DNA of 64,000 nt, taken from NCBI RefSeq assembly GCF_003987215.1, contig NZ_PIPW01000001.1, positions 62,001 to 126,000 of the forward strand. Reading direction: 5' to 3'. This DNA comes from Pseudidiomarina halophila (GTDB taxonomy: Bacteria > Pseudomonadota > Gammaproteobacteria > Enterobacterales > Alteromonadaceae). Under the pieces are notes generated by a model. It saw nothing but the letters and a program-made list of their open reading frames with translations, made no database searches and was not told the origin of the DNA. Positions 15,820-33,243 of the stretch are shown here, in pieces. Numbering within the stretch: position 1 is the first letter of the stretch; every line of letters begins with the position of its first letter. Made by a program: the position numbers and the translations under genes.

Positions 15820-15853
15820 CTGCCTGCATCGCGTATGCCTGGTCAAAATGAAG

Positions 15854-18000: not shown

Positions 18001-18022
18001 ATCCTTTCGCTCTTGTTAGTAT

Positions 18023-18050
18023 GTAGCCCGGAATTCTACTGGGGGGGAGG
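18023..18050 (+). repeat. Degenerate REP-like repeat, copy 3
   Basis: GTAGCCCGGAATTCTACTGG plus GGGGGAGG. It shares the framework of the copies at 14381 and 15791 but has lost perfect arm pairing. It separates the ClpP-like gene from the ankyrin gene on the minus strand. Confidence 0.55.
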
Positions 18051-18085
18051 TGGCGTTTGTATCCCGCTACAATTTTTACCTACAA

Positions 18086-19852
18086 CTATACAGACTCGAC
18101 CTCATGGTTAGCGCCATTCTCAACAAGTGTCTTGATGACTTGCGTGGCAGCATCTAGTTCAGCTTCACTGCCGAACGCCTGGTATTCAAGAAACATTTCC
18201 TCTGCATATTGGAGTGGTAGAACGAATCGCTCTGATAACCGTTGATTTGCAGATGCTCCCAACGCTAAAAGCTGCTCGACAAAGTCAGGCCGATTGCACT
18301 CAATCGCGAGTCCCAAAGGTGTAAGTTTGCGCTTATCTGTTCTTGTGCCCACTATTTTGTTCGTAGCAACACGCGTTGCTGCGAGCCTTGCAAACAGTAG
18401 CGCGATGATTTTTGCATCTGCATTAGACTTCGACTGCTTGTAGGTTTGTAAAGCAATAATAAGTGGTGAATGACCACGTTCAAGTGTGCCGAAGTCTAGA
18501 CGATTTGTTTGCGCAAGCAGCTTTTCAGTCGATTCATAGTCTCGCTGCAGAATCGCTTGGGAAAGCTGCTCCAAACGAAATTCTGAATCGCCGATACGCG
18601 ATTTTCGATTGGCCACGGTAAACTCTTGTTCTTCAAAACCAGCAATCATCACCTCAGGGCGCACTTTGCTGTAATCCACCTTTGCATTCGGGAATAGTTG
18701 TTTGCAATCACGTTGCCATTGCTCAATTTCGTACTGTTTCACAAAATCATTGAGCTGTTTATATACGCGAATAGGGCGTTCACTGATGTGGTCATGTGGT
18801 TGCTCCAGACCATAAACAATCGCGAGGTTTTTCGCCTTTTTCAGTAATGGCGCATCGCCATTCTTACCTTTCATTGATGCGACCATCAGTGCAAGGCTGA
18901 TAAGTTTTTCTTGTTCATCCGGATGGAAGCACGCACTCAGCTTTAGCAATTTTGAATAGCGTTTACAGGCGTTCGCAATGTAACCTTTGTCGAAGTCTTG
19001 TTTTGCCAGCTGCAAAATCTTGAGTAAATCATAGGCCCACAAGCATTGTTCCTTGTCATCGTCTGTGCGCGTTTGTTTTAACGGCAAAAAGATACGCCAA
19101 TCTAAATTCATGTGTCGCGACCGAATGCCCTCGAACAACAATTCTGAGGGTGACTTAGGCTTCGACTCGTTTTCTTCTTCGGATTCCGAATTTCCTTTTT
19201 CTTTGGGCTTTGGTTTGAGCGAGTCCAGAAAGCGTGCGTGCAGCAGTATCGTGAAATACTTTTGCTGTGTTTCTTTGCTCAAGACGTGTGAGTCCAGTAG
19301 TTCTTTGAGTTTTGTGATGCTTGCAAGCTCGCTTGTACGCCAACGCCAAAGCCGATCAATTGCGGCTTTATCGAGAGTGGCTTTGAATTTGCACCAAGTA
19401 ATATCTTCATCTAGAACTTCTAGCGCAACTGCAGTGGCGTGACGCGCTTCATCGCTGCCCATCATCCTTAAAACAGAGGGAAGATAGCTCTCTCGCATGT
19501 GAAGATAAGTATATGCTTCGAAGAATTCGATAGCGTAGAGTTCTCCCCATATAAAGTCCTCAACTTCTTTGGGCGTCATTGTGAAAAAACACGTCTGATG
19601 GAGCTTGTTGATTAAACTCTGAACTGCGGATGGAAGAATTTGCTTGAGAGCTTCGTAGTAACTATCCGACACTAGTCCTTTGAGGTTGTGGGTGATTGCT
19701 TCATAAGGCAGGTGAGCATATCGATTGTACGCTGTATGAATATTATTGATTTCATAACGCTGATCGTCTGTTAGCTGGATACCGAACCCTTCGGCCCAGA
19801 CTTTGAGAATGTTCAGTGGTGCAAGTAAAGTAGGATCGGGTGCATGTTTCAT
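18086..19852 (-). CDS. Large unknown protein with C-terminal ankyrin-like repeats
   Basis: 588 residues without signal peptide or membrane segment. The first 400 residues are helical and unrecognised; a charged low-complexity linker near residue 225 (KPKEKGNSESEEENESKPK) splits them. From about residue 455 the protein has ankyrin-like units: ERGHSPLIIALQTYKQS, KLTPLGLAIECNRPDFVEQL followed by LALGASANQ, and ATQVIKTLVENGANHEVES. Ankyrin repeats usually mediate protein binding. The gene shares a 4-base overlap with the upstream HicA-like gene and has GGAGG ahead of its start, so the pair is coupled and may form a toxin/partner module. Confidence 0.6.
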   Translation of the reverse strand: MKHAPDPTLLAPLNILKVWAEGFGIQLTDDQRYEINNIHTAYNRYAHLPYEAITHNLKGLVSDSYYEALKQILPSAVQSLINKLHQTCFFTMTPKEVEDFIWGELYAIEFFEAYTYLHMRESYLPSVLRMMGSDEARHATAVALEVLDEDITWCKFKATLDKAAIDRLWRWRTSELASITKLKELLDSHVLSKETQQKYFTILLHARFLDSLKPKPKEKGNSESEEENESKPKSPSELLFEGIRSRHMNLDWRIFLPLKQTRTDDDKEQCLWAYDLLKILQLAKQDFDKGYIANACKRYSKLLKLSACFHPDEQEKLISLALMVASMKGKNGDAPLLKKAKNLAIVYGLEQPHDHISERPIRVYKQLNDFVKQYEIEQWQRDCKQLFPNAKVDYSKVRPEVMIAGFEEQEFTVANRKSRIGDSEFRLEQLSQAILQRDYESTEKLLAQTNRLDFGTLERGHSPLIIALQTYKQSKSNADAKIIALLFARLAATRVATNKIVGTRTDKRKLTPLGLAIECNRPDFVEQLLALGASANQRLSERFVLPLQYAEEMFLEYQAFGSEAELDAATQVIKTLVENGANHEVESV

Positions 19853-20058
19853 GTGTGCCTCCGTGCTTGAATGCGTTTAATGTCCTTTGCGAAATTCGTT
19901 CCTGCGCGCCAATCACTCGGCGTGCTTGGAATTGTTGTGGTGAAGCCCTCCGGCGACACTAGTTTGTGGTGCTTTGTGCCTTTTTTAATACACCAGCCCT
20001 TTTTAATCAAATCTTTAACTAACTTATTGATTCGTTTATTGTTGCTTAATTTCATCAT
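19849..20058 (-). CDS. HicA-like (YcfA-type) toxin-fold protein
   Basis: 69 residues. The pattern of two basic helices (INKLVKDLIKKGWCI), then KKGTKHHKLVSPEGFTTTIP and a C-terminal helix (NFAKDIKRIQ) fits the HicA double-stranded-RNA-binding-like fold; HicA has a G-S-H motif at the catalytic His, here G-T-K-H-H. Known HicA toxins are ribosome-independent mRNA interferases neutralised by HicB. No HicB-like gene is adjacent; the coupled downstream gene is the ankyrin protein instead, which might serve as the partner. GGAG lies about eight bases upstream of the ATG-ATG start, beyond a hairpin. Confidence 0.6.
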   Translation of the reverse strand: MMKLSNNKRINKLVKDLIKKGWCIKKGTKHHKLVSPEGFTTTIPSTPSDWRAGTNFAKDIKRIQARRHT

Positions 20059-20068
20059 GACTCCATGT

Positions 20069-20090
20069 GTCGGTGCCTGATGGCACCGAC
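20069..20090. promoter_or_regulatory. Hairpin in the leader of the HicA-like gene
   Basis: Perfect 9-bp inverted repeat GTCGGTGCC / GGCACCGAC around TGAT, between the 32-residue peptide gene and the HicA-like start on the minus strand. It is followed by a T-rich run only in the + direction, so it is not an obvious terminator for the minus-strand genes; it may protect or attenuate the downstream mRNA. Confidence 0.5.
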
Positions 20091-20103
20091 TTTCTTGTTT
20101 AGA

Positions 20104-20202
20104 TTATTTCCGTGGTGGATTGTTGCTACGACCACCACCTGACTTGTTGCCAGTTTTGCTTGGCCACCCGGCCTTGCCTGCTGTGTTCACTGAGTTCTTC
20201 AT
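20104..20202 (-). CDS. 32-residue Gly/Asn/Pro-rich peptide
   Basis: A short reading frame, ATG at 20202-20200 to TAA at 20106-20104. It encodes a basic, glycine-rich peptide containing AGKAGWPSKTGNKSGG and ending in NNPPRK; there is no hydrophobic segment. AGAGGA sits eight bases upstream of the ATG, a strong ribosome-binding site, which is the main reason to call it a gene. It precedes the HicA-like gene by 45 bases on the same strand and could be co-transcribed. I do not recognise a characterised family. Confidence 0.5.
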   Translation of the reverse strand: MKNSVNTAGKAGWPSKTGNKSGGGRSNNPPRK

Positions 20203-20677
20203 AATTGTGTTCCTCTTGGTTATTTCTTTAGGTTTAATTTCACCCTTTGATTGGGTGAAGTTAATTGTTAACTAACCAAGGCAGTGAGAGCGACATCGTG
20301 GGGTCGGAAAAAATTAGATATTTTGGTGTGAGCGCAGCAGTCCACAAACTTGCGAATGATTTCAAATCGGGCACGTTATGCAATAGTCAACGATGGTCAA
20401 ACTTTATACGGAAAATATAATCACGGCTTCTGCGCGCCGGTTCTGCGGATATTTGGTGTGTTATGACATCAGTGGTGACTGTATACGCCGACGCGTACAC
20501 CGCCTTTTAATACGGAACGGCCACCGTAATTGTCGCTTAATGCATAGAAGTAATGAACCGCTACAGGTTGCTTTCTTTACCAATCTATTTATGATTAATT
20601 AATTGTTATAATCACTTTGCGCTACGATTAGAAATGGCGCTTTGTAATGTAAGTCGTCATGAAACCTTGGGAATGCG
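20203..20677. other. Intergenic region holding the left cassette boundary
   Basis: 475 bases between the divergent 32-residue peptide gene and the drmA-like gene. It contains the left 33-bp inverted repeat (20509-20541) and, just outside it, an imperfect palindrome TGTATACGCCGACGCGTACA. No convincing coding frame was found, and no clear -35/-10 pair stands out for drmA. Confidence 0.6.
20509..20541 (+). repeat. Left 33-bp inverted repeat of the defence cassette
   Basis: Reads AATACGGAACGGCCACCGTA then ATTGTCGCTTAAT. The reverse complement of 31606-31638 matches it in 32 of 33 positions (A versus C at the ninth base). The two copies point inward around 11.1 kb with seven intact genes. Confidence 0.8.
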
Positions 20678-23600
20678 ATGCAACAACTGCGCAACAGATT
20701 GGTTAAACATATCAAAAGTGTGTTGATTAGCGGCGTTAATACAGCAGAAGAATTAGTCTCGCGACAACCCTCCGATCATCATATGACTGCGATACTCGCA
20801 CCATTGAACAATGCGCCGACTCTTGAGGAAACAGTCGACGAATTTTCTGATAGTGAACCTAGCAGCGGCTCGAACTCCTTCCGTAAATATCAACCACCGA
20901 GCTCGGTGGGATTCTCATTTTTTATTGCTGGCGACACAATTGAGTTAAATATCTCTTGTGGTGCGACCACTTATACTCATAGAAAAACGGGCGGTGACGA
21001 TGTTTCGAGACAAAAAAATAAAAAGAATAAAGACGCATGGACCAAGTCACACTTAATCGATGAGGACATAACGCTTGTACTGACTCAGGGGCAAACCACA
21101 AAACTCGTGCTAGATGGAAATGCAACTCTATCGCTGACTTCTCGCCCGCTAATTTATGGTCACATAGTCACCGTAACGCTCTACAACCATAAATATCTAT
21201 CCACAGAATCTAATTATCGTGAGTTTAACGAGAACTGCTTATTCGAGGCTCAACTTTCATGTGAGGTTGTTAGCGGTTCACTTTCCGGCTATCCAATTAC
21301 GGAAAGAGCTTTGCTAGACGATGAACAAAGAGAAATTGAATTCCGATATCGTCAGGTAAAAACCTTAGCTGTAGGGCATGGTTCAGCGGTAAAGTGGGAA
21401 AAATTAGCCAACAATAATTGGTTTATAGAATCTGATTTTGTGCCTACGATTGAGATCCCACAAATGACAGCTGATACGGGCGATAGTGAGTCAAGGGTTT
21501 TGGATTCTCGTTGGCTGATGACGTTGCAAACTGAAGCTTCGGTTTTAGAGGACCTGGAAAGTTTTATTGATAACTACGGTTCGTGGGTAGAGAAAGAAAA
21601 AGGTGCCTTAACGGACGAGGAATGGCAACTGGACGAGGAATCAGCGTCAACGATTATTCAAAAACAAACGGCAGCCATTACTCGTATGAGGAAGGCTATT
21701 GGCTTTTTACGCACAAGTGCTTCTGCAAGGGCAGCATTTGCGCTGGCAAACGTGGCTATGCTGTCGCAAGTGAATCAGTGCACCGTTAACAAGAACGAAA
21801 GCAATCTAAATGAATTAAAAGTTTTTAAATGGAGACCCTTTCAGTTGGGATTCATTCTCGTCGCGTTAGAGTCAACTTTGAATCAAGACAGCCAAGACCG
21901 AGAAATATTAGATTTAATATGGTTTCCAACGGGGGGCGGTAAAACAGAAGCCTACTTGGGGCTAATGGCGATACTGTTCATATTCCGCAGAATGGAGTAT
22001 CCGAGCTCCGGATCCGGGACGATTTGCATGATGCGTTACACGTTAAGGTTGCTAGCATCACAGCAGTTTTTGCGTGCAAACCGGCTTATTTGTGCTTTAG
22101 AGCTCTTGCGTCGTAAACAGCCATCTGTACTCGGAGATGAACCATTTACCTCTGGGTTTTGGGTTGGTGCTAGCACTTCACCCAACACACATAAAGAAGC
22201 ACAAGAGTTGTGGAATAAAGAACGGTACTCACGCCTCGTGCTTACATCGTGTCCATGGTGTGATACCCGATTCACAAAAGAAAACTATATTTTTGAAAAT
22301 GGTCGTCTGTCTTTTCAATGTCGCAATGAGGCGTGTGACTTCCATAATAATGGTGATTTGCCAATTGATGTGGTGGATGACAATTTATATGAGAGCCCTC
22401 CAACGTTGTTGCTAGGGACAGTGGATAAATTTGCGCGCTTGGCGTGGGATGGACGAGCGAGTCGCTTTTTTGGGGTAGGTCAACGGCGACCACCGGAGTT
22501 AATCATTCAAGATGAGCTTCACCTAATTAGTAGCTCAATAGGCTCGGTGTTTGGTTTGTACGAGGCTGGTATTGATGCATTAATCCGAGCGCGGGGTCTA
22601 ACAATAAAGTATGTCGCATCAACAGCAACAATACGCAATGCTCATGAACAAACAAAAGCGTTATTTGCGAGAAAGTCAGCGGTATTTCCTCCTTCTGGTT
22701 TGAATCACACAGATGCTTACTTCGCGCGAGAAGTGCCGCTCTCAGAAAAGCCAGGTCGTTTGTATGTTGGGTTTTTGGCGGCATTAATAGCTCAATCGAA
22801 ATCCCTGGGACCACTTATGGCGGCAGCATTGGCTGCGCCGATTGAATCTTTTGCGGAAAGTGATTCTGATTTTTTGGACGCGTGGTGGACGTTGCTTGTT
22901 TATCACTCCAGCCTTAAGTCAGTAAATAACTCGTCAACGGTGCTGGAAAGTGATGCGCGAGCGAAACTCGAGGCGGCGCTCAAAGAATTCCTGCAAGGAA
23001 TAAATGATGAAGAAACTAGAGCTCGCGTCCAGTCGCTTATTGATAAGCGTAGTGCGGTCAAAACAATAACTTTGACGAGTCAAACCGAAGCTGAAGAAAT
23101 TCCCAAGTCATTCGCTCGACTATCTCATAGTTTTGAAGAGAGTGAACGCTACGTTGATGTGGGCCTTGCTTCAACGATGATTTCGGTAGGGCTTGATGTG
23201 AGCCGCCTTGCGCTAATGATTATTAACGGTCAACCGCTGACAACGGCCGAATATATCCAGGCTAGTAGTCGGGTGGGTCGCGGAACAACGCCGGGTGTGG
23301 TTGTGGTTAATTACTTAAAGGGGCAATCGCGAAGTTGGTCTCACTATGAAAATTTTAGAACTTACCATGAGTCCTTTTACCGTTTTGTTGAGCCATCTAG
23401 TGTAACTCCTTTTACCTATCAGGCGCGGAAAAGGGCGTTACACGCGGCGCTCGTTATTGCGGTGCGTCATGGTGCGCCTGGTATGCACGAGAATGCGGCC
23501 GCAGGCCTGTTTAATAAGTCTTTGCCTGAAATACAGAGAGCTTTAACGCAATTAAAAAACCGTATATCTATTGCTATTGGCGCTCATTCTGAAACTCAGC

Positions 23601-23833
23601 GACAGGTTCAAAAGCAGTTAGAAGACTTGGTCGAAGAGTGGCATGATCGGGCACAAAATTCACAGCACTCTCTCGTCTATTTTTCCCGAGACCGCTCTAG
23701 TAATAACCTTATTGAGCCGACCGAATTATTAAGTAGCATCGGTCGCGCATGGGCTACTTTGAACTCGATGCGTAATGTCGAGAGTGAGGCTAACTTGTGC
23801 TGCGTGGGGCAAGTAGTGGAGCGAGCGTCATGA
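20678..23833 (+). CDS. DrmA-like superfamily 2 helicase of a DISARM-related defence system
   Basis: 1051 residues. After a unique N-terminal 400 residues there is a helicase core: Walker A WFPTGGGKTEAYLGL near 417, DEAD-type box IIQDELHLISS near 611, motif III VASTATIRN near 645, and motif VI YIQASSRVGRGTTPG near 861. A Cys2-Cys2 zinc knuckle (CPWCDTRF and CRNEACDF) lies between motifs I and II. This arrangement matches DrmA of DISARM and the wider YprA helicase group, whose partner DUF1998 domain is encoded separately by the next gene. It would move along DNA or remodel it to recognise or block phage DNA. It is the first gene of a five-gene unit with overlaps at every junction. Start: GGGA seven bases upstream of ATG 20678. 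Confidence 0.82.
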   Translation: MQQLRNRLVKHIKSVLISGVNTAEELVSRQPSDHHMTAILAPLNNAPTLEETVDEFSDSEPSSGSNSFRKYQPPSSVGFSFFIAGDTIELNISCGATTYTHRKTGGDDVSRQKNKKNKDAWTKSHLIDEDITLVLTQGQTTKLVLDGNATLSLTSRPLIYGHIVTVTLYNHKYLSTESNYREFNENCLFEAQLSCEVVSGSLSGYPITERALLDDEQREIEFRYRQVKTLAVGHGSAVKWEKLANNNWFIESDFVPTIEIPQMTADTGDSESRVLDSRWLMTLQTEASVLEDLESFIDNYGSWVEKEKGALTDEEWQLDEESASTIIQKQTAAITRMRKAIGFLRTSASARAAFALANVAMLSQVNQCTVNKNESNLNELKVFKWRPFQLGFILVALESTLNQDSQDREILDLIWFPTGGGKTEAYLGLMAILFIFRRMEYPSSGSGTICMMRYTLRLLASQQFLRANRLICALELLRRKQPSVLGDEPFTSGFWVGASTSPNTHKEAQELWNKERYSRLVLTSCPWCDTRFTKENYIFENGRLSFQCRNEACDFHNNGDLPIDVVDDNLYESPPTLLLGTVDKFARLAWDGRASRFFGVGQRRPPELIIQDELHLISSSIGSVFGLYEAGIDALIRARGLTIKYVASTATIRNAHEQTKALFARKSAVFPPSGLNHTDAYFAREVPLSEKPGRLYVGFLAALIAQSKSLGPLMAAALAAPIESFAESDSDFLDAWWTLLVYHSSLKSVNNSSTVLESDARAKLEAALKEFLQGINDEETRARVQSLIDKRSAVKTITLTSQTEAEEIPKSFARLSHSFEESERYVDVGLASTMISVGLDVSRLALMIINGQPLTTAEYIQASSRVGRGTTPGVVVVNYLKGQSRSWSHYENFRTYHESFYRFVEPSSVTPFTYQARKRALHAALVIAVRHGAPGMHENAAAGLFNKSLPEIQRALTQLKNRISIAIGAHSETQRQVQKQLEDLVEEWHDRAQNSQHSLVYFSRDRSSNNLIEPTELLSSIGRAWATLNSMRNVESEANLCCVGQVVERAS

Positions 23834-25692
23834 AGCAAAATGACTTGTACTATACACCGGTGCGTTTTTCACACTTACTTGGCTACTCTGGCGTAGGCTC
23901 AATTGTTCGACTTGCTAACTATCGAACTGCAGTCATTTGCGATACTCGGTTTTGGGAAAGCGCTGGGGATTCATCTAGAACAATTTCTTATGTGAAACGA
24001 ATATCAAGTCAACTTGCTGAGGGACGCGAGCTCAAGGCTCCTCCTGTTTCCAAAATTGATAATGGGCGAGTTTACGGAAGCACGATACCAGCTGTTGTTT
24101 TTCCAAAAACATGCTTTTGTCGTAAATGTGGAGCTTTACACTTAGACCCTTGGGCGAAACAAAATTTAGATGCCAATGTCGAAAAGTTGTCGTGTCAGCA
24201 ATCATCCTGTGGTGGCGAGCTTCAACAAGTAACTTGGTGTGCAATCGGAGATAACGGTTATTTGAGTGAGGTCGACTGGCATTCACTCTGTCACCCCAAA
24301 CCCAGCTCCTGTAGGAGAACCATTGAAGGAGATATAAGCTATCTCAAGCTACAGGAAGTAAATGGGCAGGAATCTGTTGTTTGTACTGAATGCTTAAAGG
24401 CGAAAAAACTTCCTCGAGCGCGTCTTGGCTCTGTGAACCAGGTGCAACCTTGGTTAAGTCCGATAAAACACAAGCCTATTCATAAGTCGATGGATGGCAA
24501 AAATGAGCAATACTACGTAACGGAGATAAATAATCCGGCGACGTACTCTCCCCTTACGACTAGAGGAATTGTAATACCGCCAGAATCTCGAAGGCTTGAG
24601 GAGACCTCACTCGTTTCACAGCTCAGAAACCGTTCGGCTTTCTTATCTGATATCGAAGCTAGCAATCCCAAACGAAGAGAGTCTCGAATACGTCAGGAAG
24701 CCAGAAATATCGGTTGTTCTCCACATGAGTTAAATACTGCAATTCAGCAGGTTAGAGATAGCGAATATGAAGAGTCAGCTGTGTGGGAGAGTGAAAAGGA
24801 TCCGCAGGAAGAGGAGTTTTTGGCGTTCATCACAATGATCGAAAACCTACAAGAAGATGAGGATTTCGTTCCGGAGCATGAAACGGGTATGTTTCGTGAG
24901 CTTATTGATGCAGCGTTCCCACAATATAAACATGTGTCGAAACTCATAGAGAACTTGGTAATCGTCAAACGTTTACGAGAAATCCTTATTTTTAAGGGGT
25001 TTAAGCGAGGCGGGGGAGATGAACCTCTGATCGTGCCACCTGATATTGAGCAAAAATCTTCATGGCTGCCGGCCACCGAGCTTTTTGGAGAGGGCATTTT
25101 CTTCTCGATTAATAATGATCTACTGAGTGAGTGGGAACGACAAGCCTCTGTAAAGAGCTATGTCGATAACTTGAGTAGAGCTTATGAAGCATCATCTATC
25201 GAATTACCTAGCTTGAGTGGCGCCGGGGTAACACCTAGATTTGTGTTACTGCATACGATTGCTCATTTGTTTATTCGTGAGCTTGAGTCCTCAGCAGGCT
25301 ACCCCGCAGCATCTATCCGGGAAAGAATCTACTGTTCCCAAGCTTTAAATATGGCTGGCGTGCTCATTTACACAACGTCTGCCGATGTGGCGGGCACATT
25401 AGGTGGGCTCATGGAGCAGGGCAGAGCTAAACGATTCTTGGCTAATTTCGTGGCGATGTTAAAGCGTGCTGAATGGTGCTCGCTTGACCCCGTTTGCAGT
25501 GAAGCTAGCGGACAAGGTATTGAAAGTTTGAACATGGCAGCATGTCATGCCTGCTCTTTAGTTCCTGAAACAAGTTGTGATTTTCTTAATATACTGCTTG
25601 ATAGAAAGCTCATTTCTGGCTCAAAGGAGCATGATATCTCCAGCCTTGAAGACTTCGCGCTTAAAATGGCTCTGCGGGAAAGTACACCATGA
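23830..25692 (+). CDS. DrmB-like DUF1998 protein
   Basis: 620 residues from ATG 23830, which overlaps the helicase stop (ATGA) and has GGAG nine bases upstream; an in-frame start at 23797 would overlap 37 bases and is less likely. Cysteine pairs near the N-terminus (CFCRKCGALHLDPW, CQQSSCGGEL, CTECLKAKKLPRARL) suggest zinc binding. The C-terminal DUF1998 region is clear: LLHTIAHLFIRELESSAGYP, RERIYCS, then a Cys-rich CSLDPVCSEASGQGIES and AACHACSLVPETSC. In DISARM, DrmA and DrmB form a DNA-binding complex, and adjacency here supports the same pairing. The central acidic helical part (about 290-400) is unassigned. Confidence 0.82.
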   Translation: MKQNDLYYTPVRFSHLLGYSGVGSIVRLANYRTAVICDTRFWESAGDSSRTISYVKRISSQLAEGRELKAPPVSKIDNGRVYGSTIPAVVFPKTCFCRKCGALHLDPWAKQNLDANVEKLSCQQSSCGGELQQVTWCAIGDNGYLSEVDWHSLCHPKPSSCRRTIEGDISYLKLQEVNGQESVVCTECLKAKKLPRARLGSVNQVQPWLSPIKHKPIHKSMDGKNEQYYVTEINNPATYSPLTTRGIVIPPESRRLEETSLVSQLRNRSAFLSDIEASNPKRRESRIRQEARNIGCSPHELNTAIQQVRDSEYEESAVWESEKDPQEEEFLAFITMIENLQEDEDFVPEHETGMFRELIDAAFPQYKHVSKLIENLVIVKRLREILIFKGFKRGGGDEPLIVPPDIEQKSSWLPATELFGEGIFFSINNDLLSEWERQASVKSYVDNLSRAYEASSIELPSLSGAGVTPRFVLLHTIAHLFIRELESSAGYPAASIRERIYCSQALNMAGVLIYTTSADVAGTLGGLMEQGRAKRFLANFVAMLKRAEWCSLDPVCSEASGQGIESLNMAACHACSLVPETSCDFLNILLDRKLISGSKEHDISSLEDFALKMALRESTP

Positions 25693-26870
25693 GAGAACGT
25701 ATTCTTAGGCTTCCGGAATTATCAGACGAGCAATTTAAGATATTAGGCAAACCTAAAGAGGGCTTCTGGCTTCTACTAGGAGGCCCTGGGACTGGGAAAT
25801 CAGTTGTGGTTATGCAGCGATTGAAACAAATCAGTGCATCAGATGATGCGATGTTTCTTGCCTATAACAAAGTGCTTCACAGCTATTGTCAACAAGTGAT
25901 GAAGAGATCATTTGGCGATCAAGCCATGACAAAAATAGTTACTTCAACAATATTTAGGTGGCTAGGTGAATTTTATGACCAACAGTTGAAGCAAGGAAGG
26001 CAGTTGCCAAAATTACCCGATGCCAAATCGGCTTACGATATCGACTATGAGATGATGGAATCTAACGTTCGTGCGTCTGGCCAAGGACAGGTACATAAAA
26101 AAGTTTATCTGGTTGTTGATGAAGGTCAAGATATGCCCGAGGGGTTCTATAATTTTTTAGTAAGTGTTGGTTTTGAGAATATATTTGTTGCGGCCGATTT
26201 TAATCAGACCATCACTGAGAGGCAGTCGACGCGTGAGGAATTAATTGACGCATTAGCATTAGATAATGAAGATGTCTTGACGCTTAGCGAGAATTATCGA
26301 AATTCTAACGAGATAGCCAAGTTTTCTCAGTTTTTCTACAGTGACAAGTCGACACCGCCATCGAACGAACCAACACGAGTTGCTGGTTTCGTTCCGACCT
26401 TGCTGATGTGTAAGTATAGACTTCACGCAATAAAGTTAATTCTTAGAGAAGCTGACAATGATCCCAGAAAATTGATCGGAGTAATTGTTGGTGATCATGA
26501 AGATCTAGAGTTTTATGTTGGCCACTTACGTAACCTTGGCATGCAACTGGATAATCTTAGACCCCCAGTAACGACTTACAAGAACTCTGATGATTCCGTC
26601 GAGATTGATTTCGCTAATGGTGGAATCGTGGTTTTGTGCGATGCATCTGTTAAGGGTCTTGAGTTTGATGTTGTGTATATTTGCTTGGATAGCATTTGGA
26701 AAATCAAAAGCTCCGTGGATGAGGTAGCCTTCAGAAAATCGATGTACGTTAATGCATCACGTGCGAAAGAGAAGCTTTTTTTGCTTAAAAACCAAAAAGA
26801 AAATCGAGAGTTAATGGAGAGGCTTCCGAGTGAGCCAGAACTCATGCAGATAGGAAACCTAGATGAGTAA
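25689..26870 (+). CDS. Short superfamily 1 (UvrD/Rep-like) helicase or ATPase
   Basis: 393 residues. Walker A LLGGPGTGKSVVVMQRL lies at about 30-48, motif II YLVVDEGQDMPEGF near 140, motif IV-like LSENYRNSNEIAKF near 198, and the C-terminal UvrD_C_2-type ASVKGLEFDVVYICLD and YVNASRAKEKLFLL. It is roughly half the length of UvrD or Rep, lacking most of the 1B/2B insertions, so it may work as a switch or only within a complex. It overlaps the DrmB-like gene by ATGA and the next gene by 8 bases. SF1 helicases are not core DISARM proteins, making this an unusual component. Confidence 0.78.
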   Translation: MRERILRLPELSDEQFKILGKPKEGFWLLLGGPGTGKSVVVMQRLKQISASDDAMFLAYNKVLHSYCQQVMKRSFGDQAMTKIVTSTIFRWLGEFYDQQLKQGRQLPKLPDAKSAYDIDYEMMESNVRASGQGQVHKKVYLVVDEGQDMPEGFYNFLVSVGFENIFVAADFNQTITERQSTREELIDALALDNEDVLTLSENYRNSNEIAKFSQFFYSDKSTPPSNEPTRVAGFVPTLLMCKYRLHAIKLILREADNDPRKLIGVIVGDHEDLEFYVGHLRNLGMQLDNLRPPVTTYKNSDDSVEIDFANGGIVVLCDASVKGLEFDVVYICLDSIWKIKSSVDEVAFRKSMYVNASRAKEKLFLLKNQKENRELMERLPSEPELMQIGNLDE

Positions 26871-28047
26871 GCGTTATCGTGTTTATGAGTTCACCGAACT
26901 CCGTCACTATGTTAAAAGCGGCCTATTCCCAGTTGGTCCATGGCCAAAAATGCCTAGCAAAAAGAAAATGCTCGAATCACTGAGCGCTCAATTCAAAGAC
27001 CGTTTAGGTGAAATATGTATTGTAGAGTTGTGTGACGAAGTCAGCGAACTAATTAGTTCGAGAGGAAAGCATAAAGATATGGCTGTAGAGATTTCAGTGT
27101 CGGCGGTAACTTTTGTCTTTCCAGAACAAAAATCGAAGGAACTCTTTTGCTCGTATGAGGGGCTTGACGCTGGTTTTGTTGTCAAGGGTATTTCAATGAG
27201 AGTTGAAGCTTCGTTATATCCCGAAAAACAAGGCGAAACTGTCGGAGCTGAAGTACTTGTGAAGGAGCCGTTGTCAGCAGGTGAAACGACTTCAAGTTTA
27301 TTCGATGATAATACTGAGGAAGTGTTACTTGGGCAAAGTTTCGGCGGACTTTTGTTGGTAACTCGGTTCCTCACCTATTTATATCCAGAGTTTCTCGAAC
27401 TCTACGGTCGGCTATTGGCGCATTGTGCGCTGACACCAAAAGATTGGTTAGAAGATCTCACGCAAACGTCGAGCATTGATGGTGTTTTGGAGGAGAAGGC
27501 TGATCTTCAAGGCGAATATCTTGAGTTAGCTAAAGCAGTCATCAATAACAAGCGAATTTCCGACTTTCTCTCAAATCCAAAAGTTTGGGCAACAGAGTCA
27601 AAAATGCGAGCGGCTCAAGAAGTGAAAAAATCACTCGAGATCCTGCGAAATGGCGCCAATCAAGAAATTTATTCGGAATACATGGCAAAGCTAAAAGCAG
27701 CCTCTCGTTTCCGACTTTACTGTGTCGTACTTGATTATCGTACTGACTTTCAAGAGTTTATCAATGACATAAAATTGTGCGACATTCTGGATAAGAAAGA
27801 CTTCTTGGTGTTGGGCTTTTTCTTTGGTTTACGTGATAAGTACCGAGGCTGCTACCAAGAAATTCGCAAAGTACCAATGTTTCAGAGGGATGCATCTCAA
27901 GCCATGATGGTCTTCCACTGGAAAGCTAATGGCGGTAAGGATGTTCCTTCGCTACCTAAATTCGATGTTGATTGTTTTGCAGAGCTGAACCGAATAAGAC
28001 AATTAAAATATGGGGAAGCCCAGCGTGGTCGCGAGCGACAGCTATGA
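26863..28047 (+). CDS. Unknown protein of the DISARM-like operon
   Basis: 394 residues, not recognised. The N-terminus (KRYRVYEFTELRHYVKSGLF) is basic; there is no signal peptide or membrane segment. The middle part (QSFGGLLLVTRFLTYLYPEF then LELYGRLLAHC) is mildly hydrophobic and could pack in a helical domain. The C-terminal half is helical and charged, ending in ELNRIRQLKYGEAQ. No nuclease, ATPase or methyltransferase motif could be seen. It overlaps its upstream neighbour by 8 bases and its downstream neighbour by 4, so it is made together with two SF1-type helicases and is probably a structural or recognition subunit. Confidence 0.7.
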   Translation: MSKRYRVYEFTELRHYVKSGLFPVGPWPKMPSKKKMLESLSAQFKDRLGEICIVELCDEVSELISSRGKHKDMAVEISVSAVTFVFPEQKSKELFCSYEGLDAGFVVKGISMRVEASLYPEKQGETVGAEVLVKEPLSAGETTSSLFDDNTEEVLLGQSFGGLLLVTRFLTYLYPEFLELYGRLLAHCALTPKDWLEDLTQTSSIDGVLEEKADLQGEYLELAKAVINNKRISDFLSNPKVWATESKMRAAQEVKKSLEILRNGANQEIYSEYMAKLKAASRFRLYCVVLDYRTDFQEFINDIKLCDILDKKDFLVLGFFFGLRDKYRGCYQEIRKVPMFQRDASQAMMVFHWKANGGKDVPSLPKFDVDCFAELNRIRQLKYGEAQRGRERQL

Positions 28048-29645
28048 GAATGATTCCATCTACCCCTCTATTCGGCCCGAACGGAAATAGGCCGCCCCGT
28101 AGCGAAGTGACGATCTTTAATAAACTAAGAGAGTGTTTTGTTGATCGTAACGACTTCGTGTGTTTTCACTCGCTTAATTTAACTAGACATGAATATAAAC
28201 GCTTTGGTGAGGCAGATTTCGTAGTCTTGTCACCGTATGGTTTGTACGTAATCGAAGTTAAAGGTGGCGGTATAAGTGTTTCTGGAGGGCGGTGGACGTC
28301 AGAGAATAATGAAGGAGTTCATAATATAAGCGATCCTTTTAAACAAGCTCACGGTGCCATGCAAGCAATTTACAACAAGCTTAAAGACACCGGACAGATA
28401 AAATCAGTCGTCGACTATGGTCACACTATTTCGATGGGATACGGTGTCATATTTCCTGATTCATTCTGGAGTGCAAAAGGTTCAGAATGGGAGAGAGCGC
28501 ATATATGTGATAGGGCTGACACTAAAAATGTCGAAAGATGGCTAAAAGGATTGATGAGTTTTTGGCGTAAAAAAGACTTTAATGATAGGACTTTTTCGAC
28601 TGATGAGCTCAAGATTATTGAGCATTTTATCAGACCGACCGTCGAATACGCCGAAAGTCTGGGGCAAAAATTAGAACGCCATGATGAATCACGGGTTGGG
28701 CTTACTGAACAGCAATATCAAATTTTAGATTTCGCTGAGTATAACCCCCGCGGACTTTTTTTTGGTGGTGCTGGGACGGGTAAAACCTTTCTTGCTGCTG
28801 AGTTATCTCGAAGACTAAGTGCTTTGGGGAAATCAGTAGCGTTGGTGTGTAAATCTCCATTTTTACGGTCGTATTTGAAAGCGCTCCTAACCGACTTCCC
28901 GGTGCAGGTATATGCCATCGAAAGCTTCAAAAGAGAGCGAGATTTTGCAGGCAAGTCACAGTTTGACGTGATTATTCTCGATGAAGGACAAGACCTCTTT
29001 AACATAGAGGATATTCTTGAAATAGAGGATGCTTTGGATGGTGGTTTTAAGCATGGCTCCTGGTATGCCTTCCATGATGCAAAAAATCAATCAGGACTCG
29101 TCGGCAGCACTACTGCAGAAGGGCTTGCTTACTTGGAGGAATTCTCCCCGATAAAACTGCCATTGACCACCAACTGTCGGAATACAAAACAGATTTTGTC
29201 TGTCGTACAAAACAAGCTCGGTGTGGACATGGGAAATGTCGGTACTGGCGAGGGTTCTAAGGTTAGAGAGCTACTTGCCAAGTCGCAAGAAGAGGCTTGT
29301 AAGCTATTACATGACGAAATTGTCTTTCTGCATGAAAATGGCATCCAGACCCGCAATATCACGCTCTTATCTCCGTTACCTTGGCACGAGTCCATTGCTT
29401 CAAATTTATGCGACAGTTATGGGGTGCTGACTCAGCGTGTCGATGCGTATTCGATTGAGAGTTTCCCGCCAGCGGAGCTATCTTTTTGTGAAGTGGCAAA
29501 CTTTAAAGGATTGGAGAATAGCGTAATTATTCTGGTTGATGTTGAGCAGTCCGCATTAGAAGAGTCTGGAGCACCAAAAGCGTCTCTTTATGTAGGAATG
29601 TCTCGTGCGCGAGACGTTTTGTCGGTGATATGGAAAGGTTATTAA
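28044..29645 (+). CDS. NERD nuclease domain fused to superfamily 1 helicase
   Basis: 533 residues from ATG 28044 (ATGA overlap with the upstream stop); a longer frame begins at 27972 but lies inside the upstream gene. Residues about 20-130 form a NERD domain with the PD-(D/E)XK-like core FGEADFVVLSPYGLYVIEVK: Asp, then Glu-x-Lys. Then LFFGGAGTGKTFLAAELS (Walker A, near 240), VIILDEGQDLF (motif II, near 312), LTTNCRNTKQI (motif IV) and FKGLENSVIILVD plus YVGMSRARDVLSVIW at the C-terminus. It could cut and unwind phage DNA, taking the place of the PLD-family DrmC nuclease absent here. It is the last gene of the coupled set. Confidence 0.82.
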   Translation: MRMIPSTPLFGPNGNRPPRSEVTIFNKLRECFVDRNDFVCFHSLNLTRHEYKRFGEADFVVLSPYGLYVIEVKGGGISVSGGRWTSENNEGVHNISDPFKQAHGAMQAIYNKLKDTGQIKSVVDYGHTISMGYGVIFPDSFWSAKGSEWERAHICDRADTKNVERWLKGLMSFWRKKDFNDRTFSTDELKIIEHFIRPTVEYAESLGQKLERHDESRVGLTEQQYQILDFAEYNPRGLFFGGAGTGKTFLAAELSRRLSALGKSVALVCKSPFLRSYLKALLTDFPVQVYAIESFKRERDFAGKSQFDVIILDEGQDLFNIEDILEIEDALDGGFKHGSWYAFHDAKNQSGLVGSTTAEGLAYLEEFSPIKLPLTTNCRNTKQILSVVQNKLGVDMGNVGTGEGSKVRELLAKSQEEACKLLHDEIVFLHENGIQTRNITLLSPLPWHESIASNLCDSYGVLTQRVDAYSIESFPPAELSFCEVANFKGLENSVIILVDVEQSALEESGAPKASLYVGMSRARDVLSVIWKGY

Positions 29646-29661
29646 GACAAGGGATGTTGCA

Positions 29662-29802
29662 ATGAAATTTCACTCCATAATATTGTCGTTGTTTATGCAT
29701 TAGTCTTTCTTCTCGGCCGTATTGTTACTGCCATCCAACGCGACGTTTGCGGCGCAAGCTGCAGATTGTAATACCCCCATTCTAAGCAGCAGTTATTCGT
29801 AG
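29662..29802 (+). pseudogene. Relic of an exported-protein gene with in-frame amber stop
   Basis: From ATG 29662 the frame reads MKFHSIILSLFMH, then TAG at 29701-29703, then SFFSAVLLLPSNATFAAQAA and DCNTPILSSSYS before a second stop. Reading through the TAG gives a classical signal peptide with an AQA-A cleavage site, but the mature part is only about a dozen residues. It is most simply a truncated and interrupted gene lodged between the NERD gene and the regulator; the original product is unknown. Confidence 0.45.
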
Positions 29803-29881
29803 AATTGATGAACCGCTTGCGTTAATTGTTTGGGCGGAATGCCTGTTCGGTGGCACCGAAATCATCTCAGCGAGAACAATC

Positions 29882-29909
29882 TTGCATAATTAAATATGCA
29901 AGGTATAAT
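29882..29909 (+). promoter_or_regulatory. Promoter with overlapping palindromic operator for the XRE-ImmA/IrrE gene
   Basis: TTGCATA and TATGCAA (six-base spacer ATTAAA) form an inverted repeat at 29882-29901. Its left arm also serves as a -35 (TTGCAT), with -10 TATAAT at 29904-29909 after 16 bases. Start codon 29938 follows. The layout suggests autorepression by the XRE domain encoded downstream. Confidence 0.65.
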
Positions 29910-29937
29910 ATGTTTAAATTTTCTTCAGGTAGCACAC

Positions 29938-31044
29938 ATGGATCGTCACACCGAACAGCAACAACTGATATCGCAGCGAATTAACTACTTCCGAAAGGCT
30001 CGTGGCCTAAAGCAACAAGAGCTGAGTGAATTAATGGCGTTTAACCAGCGGCAGACACTTTCAGATATTGAGCGTGGTGAGCGTATGGTCAAGCCCAAAG
30101 AACTTATTCGCTTCGCTGAAATTTTGAATGTTAAACCGACGGCATTTCTCGATGCATTTGAGCCTGCTGTAGATGTTGAGTTTAGCTGGCGGACTAATGA
30201 TGAACATACAGCCTTTGCTGAGTTTGAGCAGCGCGGACGCAATATTATTAATCTGTTGACGACCTTACGACGAAAGCTCAACATTGCGCCAGCTTCAGTC
30301 TCGTCTCTACCCTTGGGCGAGAAAAACTCTTACGAAGACGCGCAAAATGCGGCCGAAAGACTAGTGCTTGAGCATGACCTTGGTCCATATCCTGGTAAAG
30401 TTCTGAACAAACTCTACGAAGTCTTGAACATTGACTGTATCTACCTTGAGCTGCCAGATTTTATTTCAGGCGCAGCGATGGTTTCTGATGAAGCGTTGTT
30501 GGCAGTGATAAACGCAAAGCAAGTCCGCGGTCGGCGTAACTTTGACAAAGCCCACGAGCTTTTTCATTGCTTGACGTGGCGAACGATGAAGCCTATGCAC
30601 ATCGACCGAGTGAAGCTCAATCGAAATAGCAAACGCTCGCGAACTGAACAGCTTGCTGATGCCTTTGCTGGCGCGTTACTTATGCCATCCGATTCGTTGC
30701 AAACAGCGATAACCGACGATATTACGCTAGAATCGTTAACGTCCGTTGCCAATAATTTCGAGGTTTCATTTGATGCGCTTGTTTGGCGATTAGTTTCTCT
30801 GGGGAATTTAACGAATGCCGATGCACAGCATCTTTTGAAACAAGAGCGAGAGCCAGGTAATGGTGATGCTGAAAACCTAAAACCTCATTCATTAATGAGC
30901 CACTCCTATTTGTCCGTGATAGCGAAAGGTATCGAGCATGGGCTTATCTCCGTTCGTCGCGTAGCGACGTTACTTGGCATTTCGATAGATGCATTACACG
31001 ATGCATATCACCAACATGGCATGGACGCACCATTCGATATGTAG
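29938..31044 (+). CDS. XRE-family regulator with ImmA/IrrE metallopeptidase domain
   Basis: 368 residues from ATG 29938; an upstream in-frame ATG at 29896 sits inside the promoter/operator and is unlikely. Residues 10-70 are an XRE helix-turn-helix (ARGLKQQELSELMAFNQRQT then LSDIERGER). The C-terminal half carries the zinc metallopeptidase motif FDKAHELFHCLTW (HExxH) and RTEQLADAFAGALLMP, as in ImmA/IrrE proteins that cleave or sense repressors. The next gene, 15 bases downstream, encodes a PIN-domain protein; the pair may form a stress- or phage-responsive unit, and may regulate the neighbouring helicase operon. It lies inside the inverted-repeat cassette. Confidence 0.85.
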   Translation: MDRHTEQQQLISQRINYFRKARGLKQQELSELMAFNQRQTLSDIERGERMVKPKELIRFAEILNVKPTAFLDAFEPAVDVEFSWRTNDEHTAFAEFEQRGRNIINLLTTLRRKLNIAPASVSSLPLGEKNSYEDAQNAAERLVLEHDLGPYPGKVLNKLYEVLNIDCIYLELPDFISGAAMVSDEALLAVINAKQVRGRRNFDKAHELFHCLTWRTMKPMHIDRVKLNRNSKRSRTEQLADAFAGALLMPSDSLQTAITDDITLESLTSVANNFEVSFDALVWRLVSLGNLTNADAQHLLKQEREPGNGDAENLKPHSLMSHSYLSVIAKGIEHGLISVRRVATLLGISIDALHDAYHQHGMDAPFDM

Positions 31045-31059
31045 GTAAGGGAGTAACAG

Positions 31060-31569
31060 ATGGAGAGGGAAGACCTGATTTTAGTCGACACTAACGTAAT
31101 TATCGAAGCGCATCGTGCATCGATTCTTAATGAAATGCTTGGATGTTTAAGTCTAGCTACAGTTGAAATGTGTGTCCAAGAAACGCAAACAGGTGCACAG
31201 AACCGTGATCCGTGGCAAAACATTGATGAAGGGCTTATTCGCGAAAGGATGCAAATCTTTAGTCCTACCGACGAAGATATTGTGGTTGCATCAATGGCGT
31301 TACCGGGCATTGGTGAAGTTGATGCGGGAGAACTTCACCTTTTGACTCAAGCGCATTTCTTAGCAGATCAAGATGTATGGTTTCTGGCGAGTCCTGATAA
31401 GCACCCAATGCGTTTAGCAATAGAATATGGATGGCGTGAACGACTGGTTTCTCTAGAGCGCGTTTATAGGTTAGCGAATTCAAAACGGAAGCTTCAATTG
31501 CGGGAGAATTTTACAGAGGCTTGGCATCAGGCAGTTTGTATGCAATTCACACTTAACGTACTTAAGTAA
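31060..31569 (+). CDS. PIN-domain protein, partner of the ImmA/IrrE regulator
   Basis: 169 residues. The N-terminal LILVDTNVIIEAH matches the first PIN motif with its invariant Asp; VEMCVQETQTGA provides the conserved Glu, and IGEVDAGELHLLTQA provides the later acidic residues. PIN domains are Mg2+-dependent ribonucleases and form many type II toxins. The gene follows the XRE-ImmA/IrrE gene by 15 bases on the same strand, a coupled pair seen in toxin-antitoxin and defence contexts. The right inverted repeat of the cassette begins 36 bases after its stop. Confidence 0.72.
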   Translation: MEREDLILVDTNVIIEAHRASILNEMLGCLSLATVEMCVQETQTGAQNRDPWQNIDEGLIRERMQIFSPTDEDIVVASMALPGIGEVDAGELHLLTQAHFLADQDVWFLASPDKHPMRLAIEYGWRERLVSLERVYRLANSKRKLQLRENFTEAWHQAVCMQFTLNVLK

Positions 31570-31605
31570 AGTTGCGTACTTAAGATGAATTAAGGCACTT
31601 CAAAT

Positions 31606-31638
31606 ATTAAGCGACAATTACGGTGGCCGGTCCGTATT
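31606..31638 (-). repeat. Right 33-bp inverted repeat of the defence cassette
   Basis: Reads ATTAAGCGACAATTACGGTG then GCCGGTCCGTATT; inverted match to 20509-20541 with one mismatch. No convincing target-site duplication is visible (left flank GCCTTTT, right flank GCCTCATT). Confidence 0.8.
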
Positions 31639-31768
31639 GCCTCATTAAGAAATAACACATTGGGCATCAATCAATCAGTAGCTTCGCCTTCCGTAAGTTA
31701 GGCTGGCGCGCTGACCTTTACCGGTTACCGTTTTTTCACTTTGAAGTTTATTTTTGTAAAGGAGTTGA

Positions 31769-31790
31769 ATAATACCATAAATGGTATTAT
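31769..31790. promoter_or_regulatory. Perfect palindromic operator of the HigBA-like locus
   Basis: TAATACCATAAATGGTATTA is self-complementary, and the flanking A and T extend the symmetry to 22 bases. It fills the spacer between a possible -35 (TTGAAT, 31765-31770) and -10 (TATATT, 31788-31793; 17-base spacer). This is the expected position for repression by the antitoxin. Confidence 0.7.
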
Positions 31791-31818
31791 ATTCCCGTTA
31801 TGCGTAAAAGGACTTAGC

Positions 31819-31944
31819 ATGAGAGCTGCACCAACTGTTGAGCGTAAAGCTCAGGAATACACGGACGAGGCCGGCAGAAGCCCATTTCAAGACTGGTTAA
31901 TTTCGTTAAAAGATAATCGGGTGAAGGTAAATGTATGGCTTTAA
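31819..31944 (+). pseudogene. Truncated HigB/RelE-family toxin gene
   Basis: From ATG 31819 the frame encodes MRAAPTVERKAQEYTDEAG, then RSPFQDWLISLKDNRVKVNV and a stop: about 41 residues. The FxxWLxxLKD-x-R segment is the hallmark N-terminus of Gp49-like HigB toxins, which are near 100 residues and end in a catalytic beta-sheet. Everything after the first third is deleted, and the frame runs directly into the antitoxin ribosome-binding site, so the toxin is inactive. The intact operator upstream suggests recent loss. Confidence 0.7.
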
Positions 31945-32255
31945 CACGTGAATTCAAAGAAACAGTTATGGAACTTTGCAAGGATCCAGAGTACCGCAAG
32001 GCGTTACTGCTAGAAGCATTAGAATCGTATCTCGAAAACGATATTGCCGTAGGTAATGCGTTGCTGCGCGACTACTTAAATGGAACTCAGGCCTTTAGCG
32101 ATGTCGCTAAAGAGCTCGAAGTGGAAGAGTCAGGATTACGCCGAATGGTCAGCCGCAATGGTAACGCTACAGCTAAGAAGCTTTTCCGGCTGTTTAAAAT
32201 TTGTCAGAAACGTGAAGGGTTCCAGTCTGCCGACGAGTTTTTAGGTACCGTGTAA
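31935..32255 (+). CDS. HigA-like antitoxin / helix-turn-helix regulator
   Basis: 106 residues. The central segment FSDVAKELEVEESGLRRMVS is a helix-turn-helix, and the N-terminal ALTREFKETVMELCKDPEYR with ALLLEALESYLENDI resembles the antitoxin partners of Gp49/HigB toxins. It overlaps the truncated toxin frame by 10 bases and has AAGG ahead of ATG 31935. It should bind the toxin and the palindrome at 31769-31790, repressing its own operon. With its toxin broken, it is an orphan antitoxin that might neutralise related toxins elsewhere. Confidence 0.72.
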   Translation: MALTREFKETVMELCKDPEYRKALLLEALESYLENDIAVGNALLRDYLNGTQAFSDVAKELEVEESGLRRMVSRNGNATAKKLFRLFKICQKREGFQSADEFLGTV

Positions 32256-32269
32256 ACAAACGGAGTATC

Positions 32270-32294
32270 GTAGCCCGCAGCATCATTGCGGGCC
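32270..32294 (+). repeat. REP-like repeat variant, copy 4
   Basis: GTAGCCCGCAGCATCATTGC then GGGCC. It keeps the arms CCCGCA and TGCGGG but has a different loop from copies 1 and 2. It lies between convergent genes and could act as a bidirectional 3' end. Confidence 0.55.
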
Positions 32295-32311
32295 ATCGAT
32301 TTAACACAAGT

Positions 32312-32926: not shown

Positions 32927-33110
32927 CTGGAACCTCGCTTATCTTTTTCGGTGAATTTGCGTACTCCCTATTACCTTTGGGCGAAAGCCTTGAGATCAAG
33001 GTGTTCTAGCGTTGGCTACTTGTCGTTGAGCTGCTTTTACTTTATGAAGGGGGTATACGTTTATTCCTTAAACAATAAACATAATTACAACGAGGCTGTG
33101 TTAGTGCTTA

Positions 33111-33128
33111 CCTCCTAAATTAAGGAGG
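33111..33128 (+). promoter_or_regulatory. Hairpin that could sequester a Shine-Dalgarno sequence
   Basis: CCTCCT (33111-33116) can pair with AGGAGG (33123-33128) across AAATTA. AGGAGG is the ribosome-binding site of the small frame that follows, so the hairpin would mask it. The stem is only six bases, but it is a complete anti-SD/SD pair. Confidence 0.4.
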
Positions 33129-33242
33129 ATGTACCCTGTGCGAGTGCCGCTTTTTGTGTTTGCATCACTCTTGGGCGGCATGTGCTTTTACATGGCTATT
33201 GGCGTAAGGGTTTGTATGGGTATTGAGGTGATGGACGCTTAG
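33129..33242 (+). CDS. Possible 34-37-residue hydrophobic small protein
   Basis: An in-frame ATG at 33129 directly abuts AGGAGG and a GTG at 33138 is nine bases after it, so GTG is the more likely start. The product reads VRVPLFVFASLLGGMCFYMA and continues IGVRVCMGIEVMDA, a single potential transmembrane helix. No homology is known to me. The strong SD and the preceding hairpin are the evidence; the REP-like repeat and csrA (opposite strand) follow. Confidence 0.35.
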   Translation: MYPVRVPLFVFASLLGGMCFYMAIGVRVCMGIEVMDA

Positions 33243-33243
33243 A

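Follow-up and report, generated by a model that had tools for sequence, protein, structure and literature searches.

In the 64,000-nucleotide stretch of Pseudidiomarina halophila DNA analysed here (hereafter the window; positions 62,001 to 126,000 of contig NZ_PIPW01000001.1), sequence comparison identifies five same-strand open reading frames (ORFs) at 20678-29645 (+) as one conserved, co-diverging operon. They encode, in order, a DrmA-type helicase, a DrmB-type protein, a short superfamily 1 (SF1) helicase, a fast-evolving protein referred to as gene 4, and a NERD nuclease domain fused to an SF1 helicase (NERD-SF1). We consider it rather probable that this operon is a horizontally spread, methyltransferase-free relative of the DISARM defence system, in which the DrmA-DrmB pair (DrmAB) works by the mechanism proposed below. 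The operon products would form a machine that unwinds and probably cuts DNA, its likely nuclease being NERD-SF1, and we infer an anti-phage activity for it.

Gene content and organization of the operon

The first gene (20678-23833, +) encodes a 1051-amino acid (aa) superfamily 2 (SF2) helicase of the YprA family with intact Walker A (GGGKTE) and QDELH motifs. The protein matched the PADLOC DrmA profile at E 1.3e-200 and DISARM DrmA (PDB chain 7s9v_A), the sole solved structure matched at E 0.001, at E 1.2e-116, whereas its match to the Druantia DruE3 profile reached E 0.0048 only. The second gene (23830-25692, +), with an ATG start inside a 4-base overlap, encodes a DUF1998/MZB protein with a zinc-site cysteine cluster in its C-terminal part, scoring 305 bits against NCBIfam DrmB_fam (NF038324; cut-off 240), 27.8 bits against Pfam MZB (cut-off 24.2) and E 4.6e-45 against DrmB in PDB (7s9v_B). 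The third gene (25689-26870, +; 393 aa) encodes a short UvrD/SLFN-g3-like SF1 helicase, AAA_19/UvrD-like in its profile matches, with Walker A (GGPGTGKS) and DEGQD intact, and is followed by gene 4 (26863-28047, +; 394 aa). The fifth gene (28044-29645, +) carries a NERD domain (PF08378; 28110-28409, +; 50 bits, cut-off 22.1) followed by an SF1 helicase, with EADF...EVKG, Walker A (GGAGTGKT) and DEGQD intact, and matched PADLOC RTasNERD-Hel at E 3.5e-52.

Adjacent ORFs overlap at every junction, by 4 bases (ATGA, 23830-23833), 4 bases (25689-25692), 8 bases (26863-26870) and 4 bases (ATGA, 28044-28047). A five-gene operon with such 4- or 8-base overlaps had been proposed in an earlier sequence-only reading of this DNA, and it is confirmed here by the ORFs and the junction sequence. 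The longer starts given by the ORF finder, GTG at 23797 and TTG at 27972, are unnecessary, and relatives align with the ATG at 28044. Promoter-like sites in the region were at chance level (17 found, 20.0 expected), and terminator-like sites were above it (21 found, 12.0 expected, standard deviation 4.4).

The five genes recur together in one DrmA clade

Related loci were pooled from a named-genome scan with a DrmA alignment (the best 80 of 584 confirmed places, to which the frequencies apply), from plasmids and from genomes of the class, and their genes were called with profiles built in this analysis. In a tree of 101 DrmA proteins (LG+G4; Shimodaira-Hasegawa-like approximate likelihood-ratio test (SH-aLRT) support without bootstrap; some inner forks unresolved), the window DrmA sits in a clade of 20 rows with an SH-aLRT value of 100. 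Two long-branch rows lie outside this clade, and an odd letter make-up was flagged in many rows. L053, from the same contig as L041, was left out of the tree, and L061 (an 811-aa DrmA at a contig end, then DrmB, SF1 and gene 4) fell below the 850-aa limit and is in no count.

All five genes stand in the window order in 17 of the 20 clade loci, the window included, indicating that the arrangement goes beyond chance. A gene 4 homologue is found in 20/20 clade rows. The Walker and DExH motifs of DrmA are intact in all 20 clade members, as is the PD-(D/E)xK-type motif in 17 of 17 clade NERD proteins. The SF1 frame of L056, missed by the ORF rule, was found by reading the frame, and DrmB of L057 is split over two frames; in L065, a Rhodothermales genome, a single 1654-aa frame encodes both DrmA and DrmB, so that the two DISARM core proteins are apparently fused. 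Furthermore, the pairwise distances of the five proteins correlate at r 0.77-0.94 over 17 loci, with the better-scoring DrmB piece of L057 used. The five genes, taken as a unit in the sequence-only reading, thus recur together in the neighbourhoods of relatives, and its placing of the first two proteins in the DrmA-DrmB family held up in PADLOC, NCBIfam and PDB searches.

The records of the five-gene loci name gamma-, alpha- and betaproteobacteria, a Deltaproteobacteria metagenome-assembled genome (MAG), Desulfonatronospira and a Phycisphaerae MAG. Among 369 genomes sampled from the class, the five-gene operon occurs in three (the window's own, G047 and G343), and eight further genomes have a DrmA relative at E < 1e-30. 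Viral contigs held 19 DrmA relatives with a best segment identity of 37 %, and phage records gave one weak match.

Clade loci are devoid of DrmC-like genes and nearly so of methyltransferase genes

The window operon yielded no methyltransferase in Pfam, NCBIfam and PADLOC scans. In the related loci, each of about 20 kb, methyltransferases of three kinds were sought with PglX-like, cytosine-5 (C5) and HsdM-like profiles at E 1e-10, other methylase families lying outside the scan, and one was found in 1 of the 20 clade loci, 47 of the 72 other DrmA loci and 10 of the 12 comparison loci. The other loci include L077, L097, L101 and L113, which had no DrmA frame under the ORF rule and are outside the tree, and L049 is in the tree and in none of the three groups. 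The comparison loci comprise L131-L134 and L137 with an annotated drmA, L047, L048, L108 and L129 with a DrmC-like gene, and the less clear DrmAB loci L135, L136 and L138, placed among other tree branches. The methylase models came from eight counted loci (PglX-like from L132-L134; C5 from L033, L035, L040 and L136; HsdM-like from L052), whose hits are therefore built in: among the comparison loci three PglX-like and one C5, among the other loci three C5, and in the clade L052. The PglX-like model matched none of the 20 clade loci, and the lone clade methylase, within 4 kb of drmA in L052, is an HsdM-like gene (N6_Mtase by Pfam). In the 72 other loci the methylase is not always part of the operon, as only 15 have one within 4 kb of drmA. 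A Pfam tally of 110 clade-neighbour proteins gave 135 families, and the 25 listed include no methylase, not even the one known from L052. A search of the window genome covering C5, N6_N4 and N6_Mtase found one C5 methylase about 98 kb downstream of drmA, two weak N6_Mtase matches and no N6_N4 match.

A DrmC-like phospholipase D (PLD) gene, sought by phmmer with the DrmC of L131, was found in 0/20 clade loci, 0/72 other loci and 5/12 comparison loci, L131 itself among them. The view taken from the letters alone, that the operon is without PLD and methyltransferase components, therefore extends to the clade, the methylase of L052 being the exception. NERD genes, on the other hand, are present in 17 of the 20 clade loci, 39 of the 72 other DrmA loci and none of the 12 comparison loci, and SF1 genes are often found in the other loci too. 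NERD without DrmC is thus common in the wider group, and the methylases in 47 of the 72 other loci suggest that their lack is a property of this clade and not of NERD-bearing DrmAB loci generally. Ten sister loci with gene 4 have NERD-SF1 as the first gene (L033, L043, L064, L073, L078, L088, L100, L103, L112 and L116), mostly in the order NERD-DrmA-DrmB-SF1-gene 4, and a C5 methylase is in the stretch read of nine of them, L100 being without.

Decay of an ordinary DISARM locus, with loss of drmC and the methylase, is another conceivable origin, in favour of which stand the apparent non-essentiality of DrmC for DISARM activity described in PMC9142583 and a window DrmB score above the curated cut-off. 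However, the five window frames are open with their motifs intact, and the operon belongs to a separate, supported clade in which gene 4 occurs in 20/20, NERD in 17/20 and DrmC-like genes in 0/20 loci, and in which no row has drmC plus drmMI or drmMII in the operon. We therefore regard decay as highly improbable.

Gene 4 is predicted to combine a DarT-like and an ARH-like fold

Gene 4 had been called unknown in the sequence-only reading, which stands as far as Pfam, NCBIfam and PADLOC, the three libraries scanned, are concerned, since none was matched, but structure prediction suggests a DarT-like and an ARH-like fold. Used alone as a query, gene 4 found no relatives in genome contigs, plasmids or the 369 class genomes, the only match being the window's own, and a first profile comparison of the window protein with three relatives reached Prob 3.7. 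The family was revealed by synteny and an iterated profile: a 19-member clade profile from which the window was excluded picked the window gene 4 out of 5734 ORFs at E 1.4e-6, and no ORF outside the family scored better than E 2.3. Gene 4 changes fastest of the five, with a mean identity of 26 % versus 43-49 % for the other four proteins.

AlphaFold models were obtained for the window protein (predicted local distance difference test score (pLDDT) 77.5, predicted template-modelling score (pTM) 0.81) and for the relative in L057 (pLDDT 87.6, pTM 0.86). In the window protein, residues 1-120 (26863-27222, +) are predicted to adopt a DarT-like ADP-ribosyltransferase fold (VIA Z 7.6 to 7omv), and residues ~149-359 (27307-27939, +) an ARH3/DraG-like helical fold (VIA Z 10.3 to 6g1q_B, aligned over residues 151-359). 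The L057 protein aligned to DarT at Z 11.7 and to ARH3 at Z 13.8; since VIA Z values below 8, or below about 13 for helical folds, can reflect mere arrangement, and three mitoribosomal and chloroplast chains also reach Z 10.5-11.8 with this protein, the ARH-like fold of the C-terminal half is probable, not certain. For the N-terminal half, DarT was the top Foldseek match of the L057 protein (E 5.1e-4, probability 1.00) and took up the first five rows. Moreover, a profile comparison of 16 clade gene-4 proteins with 16 DarT proteins gave Prob 92.3 and E 7.3e-8 (86.9 and 4.7e-7 with 31 members), which supports a DarT-like fold. Pfam 2CompART was matched by 8 of 26 gene-4 relatives at E <= 1, the best at 25.4 bits versus a gathering threshold of 27 and the window protein unmatched, and is a lead only. 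A PDB sequence search with the gene-4 profile returned one chance-level row (E 0.26). After removal of short ARH fragments, comparison with 15 ARH proteins gave Prob 0.2-0.5, too weak to map the metal-binding Asp residues safely.

Between the two profiles, a glutamate kept in 15/16 DarT proteins, which we take to be the catalytic residue, is kept in 0/16 clade gene-4 proteins (the window protein not being among the 16), making a non-enzymatic reader or adaptor the most likely role of gene 4. If gene 4 were instead a working ADP-ribosyltransferase and hydrolase, ADP-ribose on DNA might stand in for methylation or poison phage DNA. The predicted fold of both halves, the relatives' profile match to DarT, the presence, in 8/16 clade relatives, of an acidic residue two positions N-terminal to the lost glutamate and a DarT-annotated gene beside the NERD gene of a related Azospirillum locus would all suit such an enzyme, but the loss of the glutamate throughout the 16 and the lack of any invariant column in a 26-member alignment argue against it, and we judge it decidedly unlikely. 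Gene 4 as a replacement for the methylase was dropped, 10 of the 12 other loci with gene 4 also having a methylase in the stretch read.

In that Azospirillum plasmid locus (L037), which also has SF1, DrmA and DrmB, the DarT-annotated gene (6312-8713) adjoins NERD-SF1, and its protein matches E. coli DarT1 (8baq) at E 3.5e-13.

Genomic setting and mobility

The operon lies in a variable stretch (14335-32265). The relative G371 keeps the flanking genes 11947-14334 and 32266-33000, separated by about 15 kb of different DNA, and for four other relatives the stretches taken gave a match to the downstream side only. Of 26 genomes of the genus, only the window's own has DrmA. This rarity, together with flanks kept around other DNA in G371, is the pattern of mobile or exchangeable cargo. 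Sister-group relatives are carried on plasmids, and a PADLOC tally of the 110 clade-neighbour proteins found three DruE-like (Druantia) proteins and four defence helicases of GajB/RTasHel type, which fits defence islands.

These observations bear on two other functions. The operon could serve DNA repair or recombination and not defence, much as MrfAB deals with mitomycin damage, since helicases and nucleases suit repair and the YprA family includes the repair helicase MrfA (PMC12458937). A repair role is hard to reconcile, however, with a variable stretch, an occurrence in one of 26 genus genomes, plasmid-borne relatives in the sister group and a DrmA whose sole solved counterpart at E 0.001 is that of DISARM (MrfA was not among the rows of the tree), and we find it quite unlikely. 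Alternatively, the same DNA-end loading and degradation could be directed mainly against plasmids and conjugating DNA, not phage. DISARM is reported to protect against plasmid conjugation (PMC9142583), yet the sister-group relatives are themselves plasmid-borne, and we hold this target to be unlikely.

Just downstream of the operon, at 29896-31569, lie genes for a protein with a helix-turn-helix (HTH-Xre) domain and an ImmA/IrrE metallopeptidase domain (PADLOC RmrA, E 1.9e-24) and for a small protein that looks PIN-like by eye, with no Pfam, NCBIfam or PADLOC match; perhaps they are a regulator or a toxin-antitoxin pair. Elsewhere in the variable stretch (16477-19852), a minus-strand protein has a weak ClpP-protease match and another has weak ankyrin-repeat matches. 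A palindromic element like repetitive extragenic palindromic (REP) sequences has two copies at the edge of the stretch (14375-14406 and 15790-15816), and the 27-base unit of the latter occurs four times, 82 bases apart, in G375 (L159 6101-6373). A second insertion spot lies at 32927-33290: the genes 32312-32926 and 33783-36515 are adjacent in the window, and their counterparts in G371 (L156 338-14433) have about 14 kb of other DNA between them. A gene of 1551-1614 aa precedes eight actinobacterial DrmA loci (L086, L095, L098, L099, L102, L115, L121 and L125), most of them with NERD; two Vibrio loci (L054 and L114) have a protein of about 2145 aa before drmA and a 715-aa SF1 helicase, UvrD-type in L054, after NERD-SF1.

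Proposed mechanism and its weighing

We propose that DrmA and DrmB form a heterodimeric translocase as in DISARM. DrmAB would load on single-stranded or 5'-overhang stretches of incoming or replicating foreign DNA and unwind the DNA, and the gene 3 helicase and the NERD-SF1 nuclease-helicase would join the complex and degrade it. Gene 4, as a non-enzymatic reader or adaptor recognizing single-stranded DNA, ADP-ribosylated DNA or a phage protein, would help to choose the target, so that self and foreign DNA would be distinguished by DNA structure and gene 4, not by methylation. A bolder version, which we consider unlikely, is a restriction-like immunity in which ADP-ribose on DNA, read or written, takes the place of methyl groups: the subunit with the DarT/ARH fold would sense ADP-ribosylated or single-stranded phage DNA, or still carry out a divergent ADP-ribosyl reaction, and thereby gate DrmAB and NERD-SF1.

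Several observations weigh against a methyltransferase-free DISARM relative working in this way. The window DrmA scores 792 bits against NCBIfam DISARM_DrmAS, below the curated equivalog cut-off of 950. In class 1 DISARM, DrmA has an EVE-like domain and a trigger loop N-terminal to its helicase core, the loop being residues 176-232 in Serratia, and DrmAB is autoinhibited, is opened by single-stranded DNA of 5' overhangs and requires its ATPase (PMC9142583). The NCBI DrmAS profile matches the window DrmA from residue 60, but the alignment with Serratia DrmA (7s9v_A) begins at window residue 203 and chain residue 368, past the trigger loop, so autoinhibition by this loop cannot be assumed for the window protein. 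NERD-SF1 does not appear indispensable, since L062, L065 and L118 have no NERD gene in the 5.4, 5.8 and 2.7 kb past gene 4, respectively, and the NERD protein of L063 is without recognizable Walker motifs. For the window gene 4 itself, DarT is the top Foldseek match at an E of 0.79 (probability 0.93), the profile comparison reached Prob 0.3 to DarT and 0.1 to ARH, and the ARH half comes from predicted structure only. The methylase deficit of the clade relative to other DrmA loci has a Fisher p of 1e-6, which overstates independence, as the clade is one lineage and the deficit may be one event; likewise, 0 of 2000 permutations reached the observed r in each of the ten protein pairs, counts that overstate independence with shared ancestry uncorrected. 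Lastly, guanine-plus-cytosine (GC) content is 42-47 % around the operon versus 51-54 % at 34-48 kb, but upstream values are low as well (36-51 % over the first 20 kb), and neither a boundary nor an island can be read from GC alone.

Comparison with known systems

The operon resembles DISARM of classes 1 and 2 in having a DrmA SF2 helicase and a separate, adjacent DrmB/DUF1998 gene, whose DISARM counterparts are the sole solved structures matched. It differs in the components around them, the clade having DrmC-like PLD genes in 0/20 and a methyltransferase in 1/20 loci, and instead an SF1 helicase, the DarT/ARH-fold protein and NERD-SF1. Because the operon has neither DrmC nor a methylase, both typical of DISARM, and its DrmA is below the equivalog cut-off, we do not call it DISARM; if functional, it would act in the manner of a DISARM relative.

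Three other systems built on YprA-family helicases were compared. ARMADA type II likewise has such a helicase and an SF1/UvrD (GajB-like) helicase in its operon, but in ARMADA the YprA-OB-DUF1998-Vsr protein is one chain, accompanied by a BrxHII-like helicase, a PglX-like methylase and an SF1 protein with a RelE-like domain (PMC12458937); in the window operon DrmA and DrmB are split, and these specific parts were unmatched in Pfam, NCBIfam and PADLOC. TALON, largely of Chloroflexota, also couples a YprA-family helicase with a NERD-type nuclease, but its ARMADA-like helicase is fused to an inactivated RNase H fold and accompanied by TPR-CSD and TBP genes (PMC12458937), whereas the window has split DrmA and DrmB and a NERD fused to SF1, and neither TPR-CSD nor TBP was matched by any of the nine proteins scanned (the five operon products and four neighbours). 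Druantia type III shares a YprA-family helicase thought to act on intermediates containing single-stranded DNA (PMC13192584), but DruE is a single chain that carries PLD domains of its own and is paired with DruH. ARMADA, TALON and Druantia are thus excluded by their gene content and chain architecture. The likeness to DarTG lies in the predicted DarT fold of the gene 4 N-terminal half and the profile match of its relatives, from which the lost glutamate, the C-terminal ARH-like fold and the lack of a macrodomain match set it apart.

A DISARM-like system beside McrBC branches has been announced for a later paper (PMC11090510); a Pfam scan identified no McrBC beside the window operon, and in the related locus L039 a DUF2357 gene and a cytosine methylase lie upstream. 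Among the matches listed in the open-licence literature, we found no description of DrmAB with SF1, NERD-SF1 and a DarT/ARH-fold protein, although an earlier description may exist, and no link between DrmAB and ADP-ribosylation folds.

Together, our data present this clade as a natural minus-methylase version of the question of how DrmAB tells foreign from self DNA without or beyond methylation. The operon would tie DrmAB systems to ADP-ribosylation folds through gene 4 and, with DrmC reported to be dispensable in DISARM, NERD-SF1 offers a testable candidate for the nuclease of a DrmAB system.

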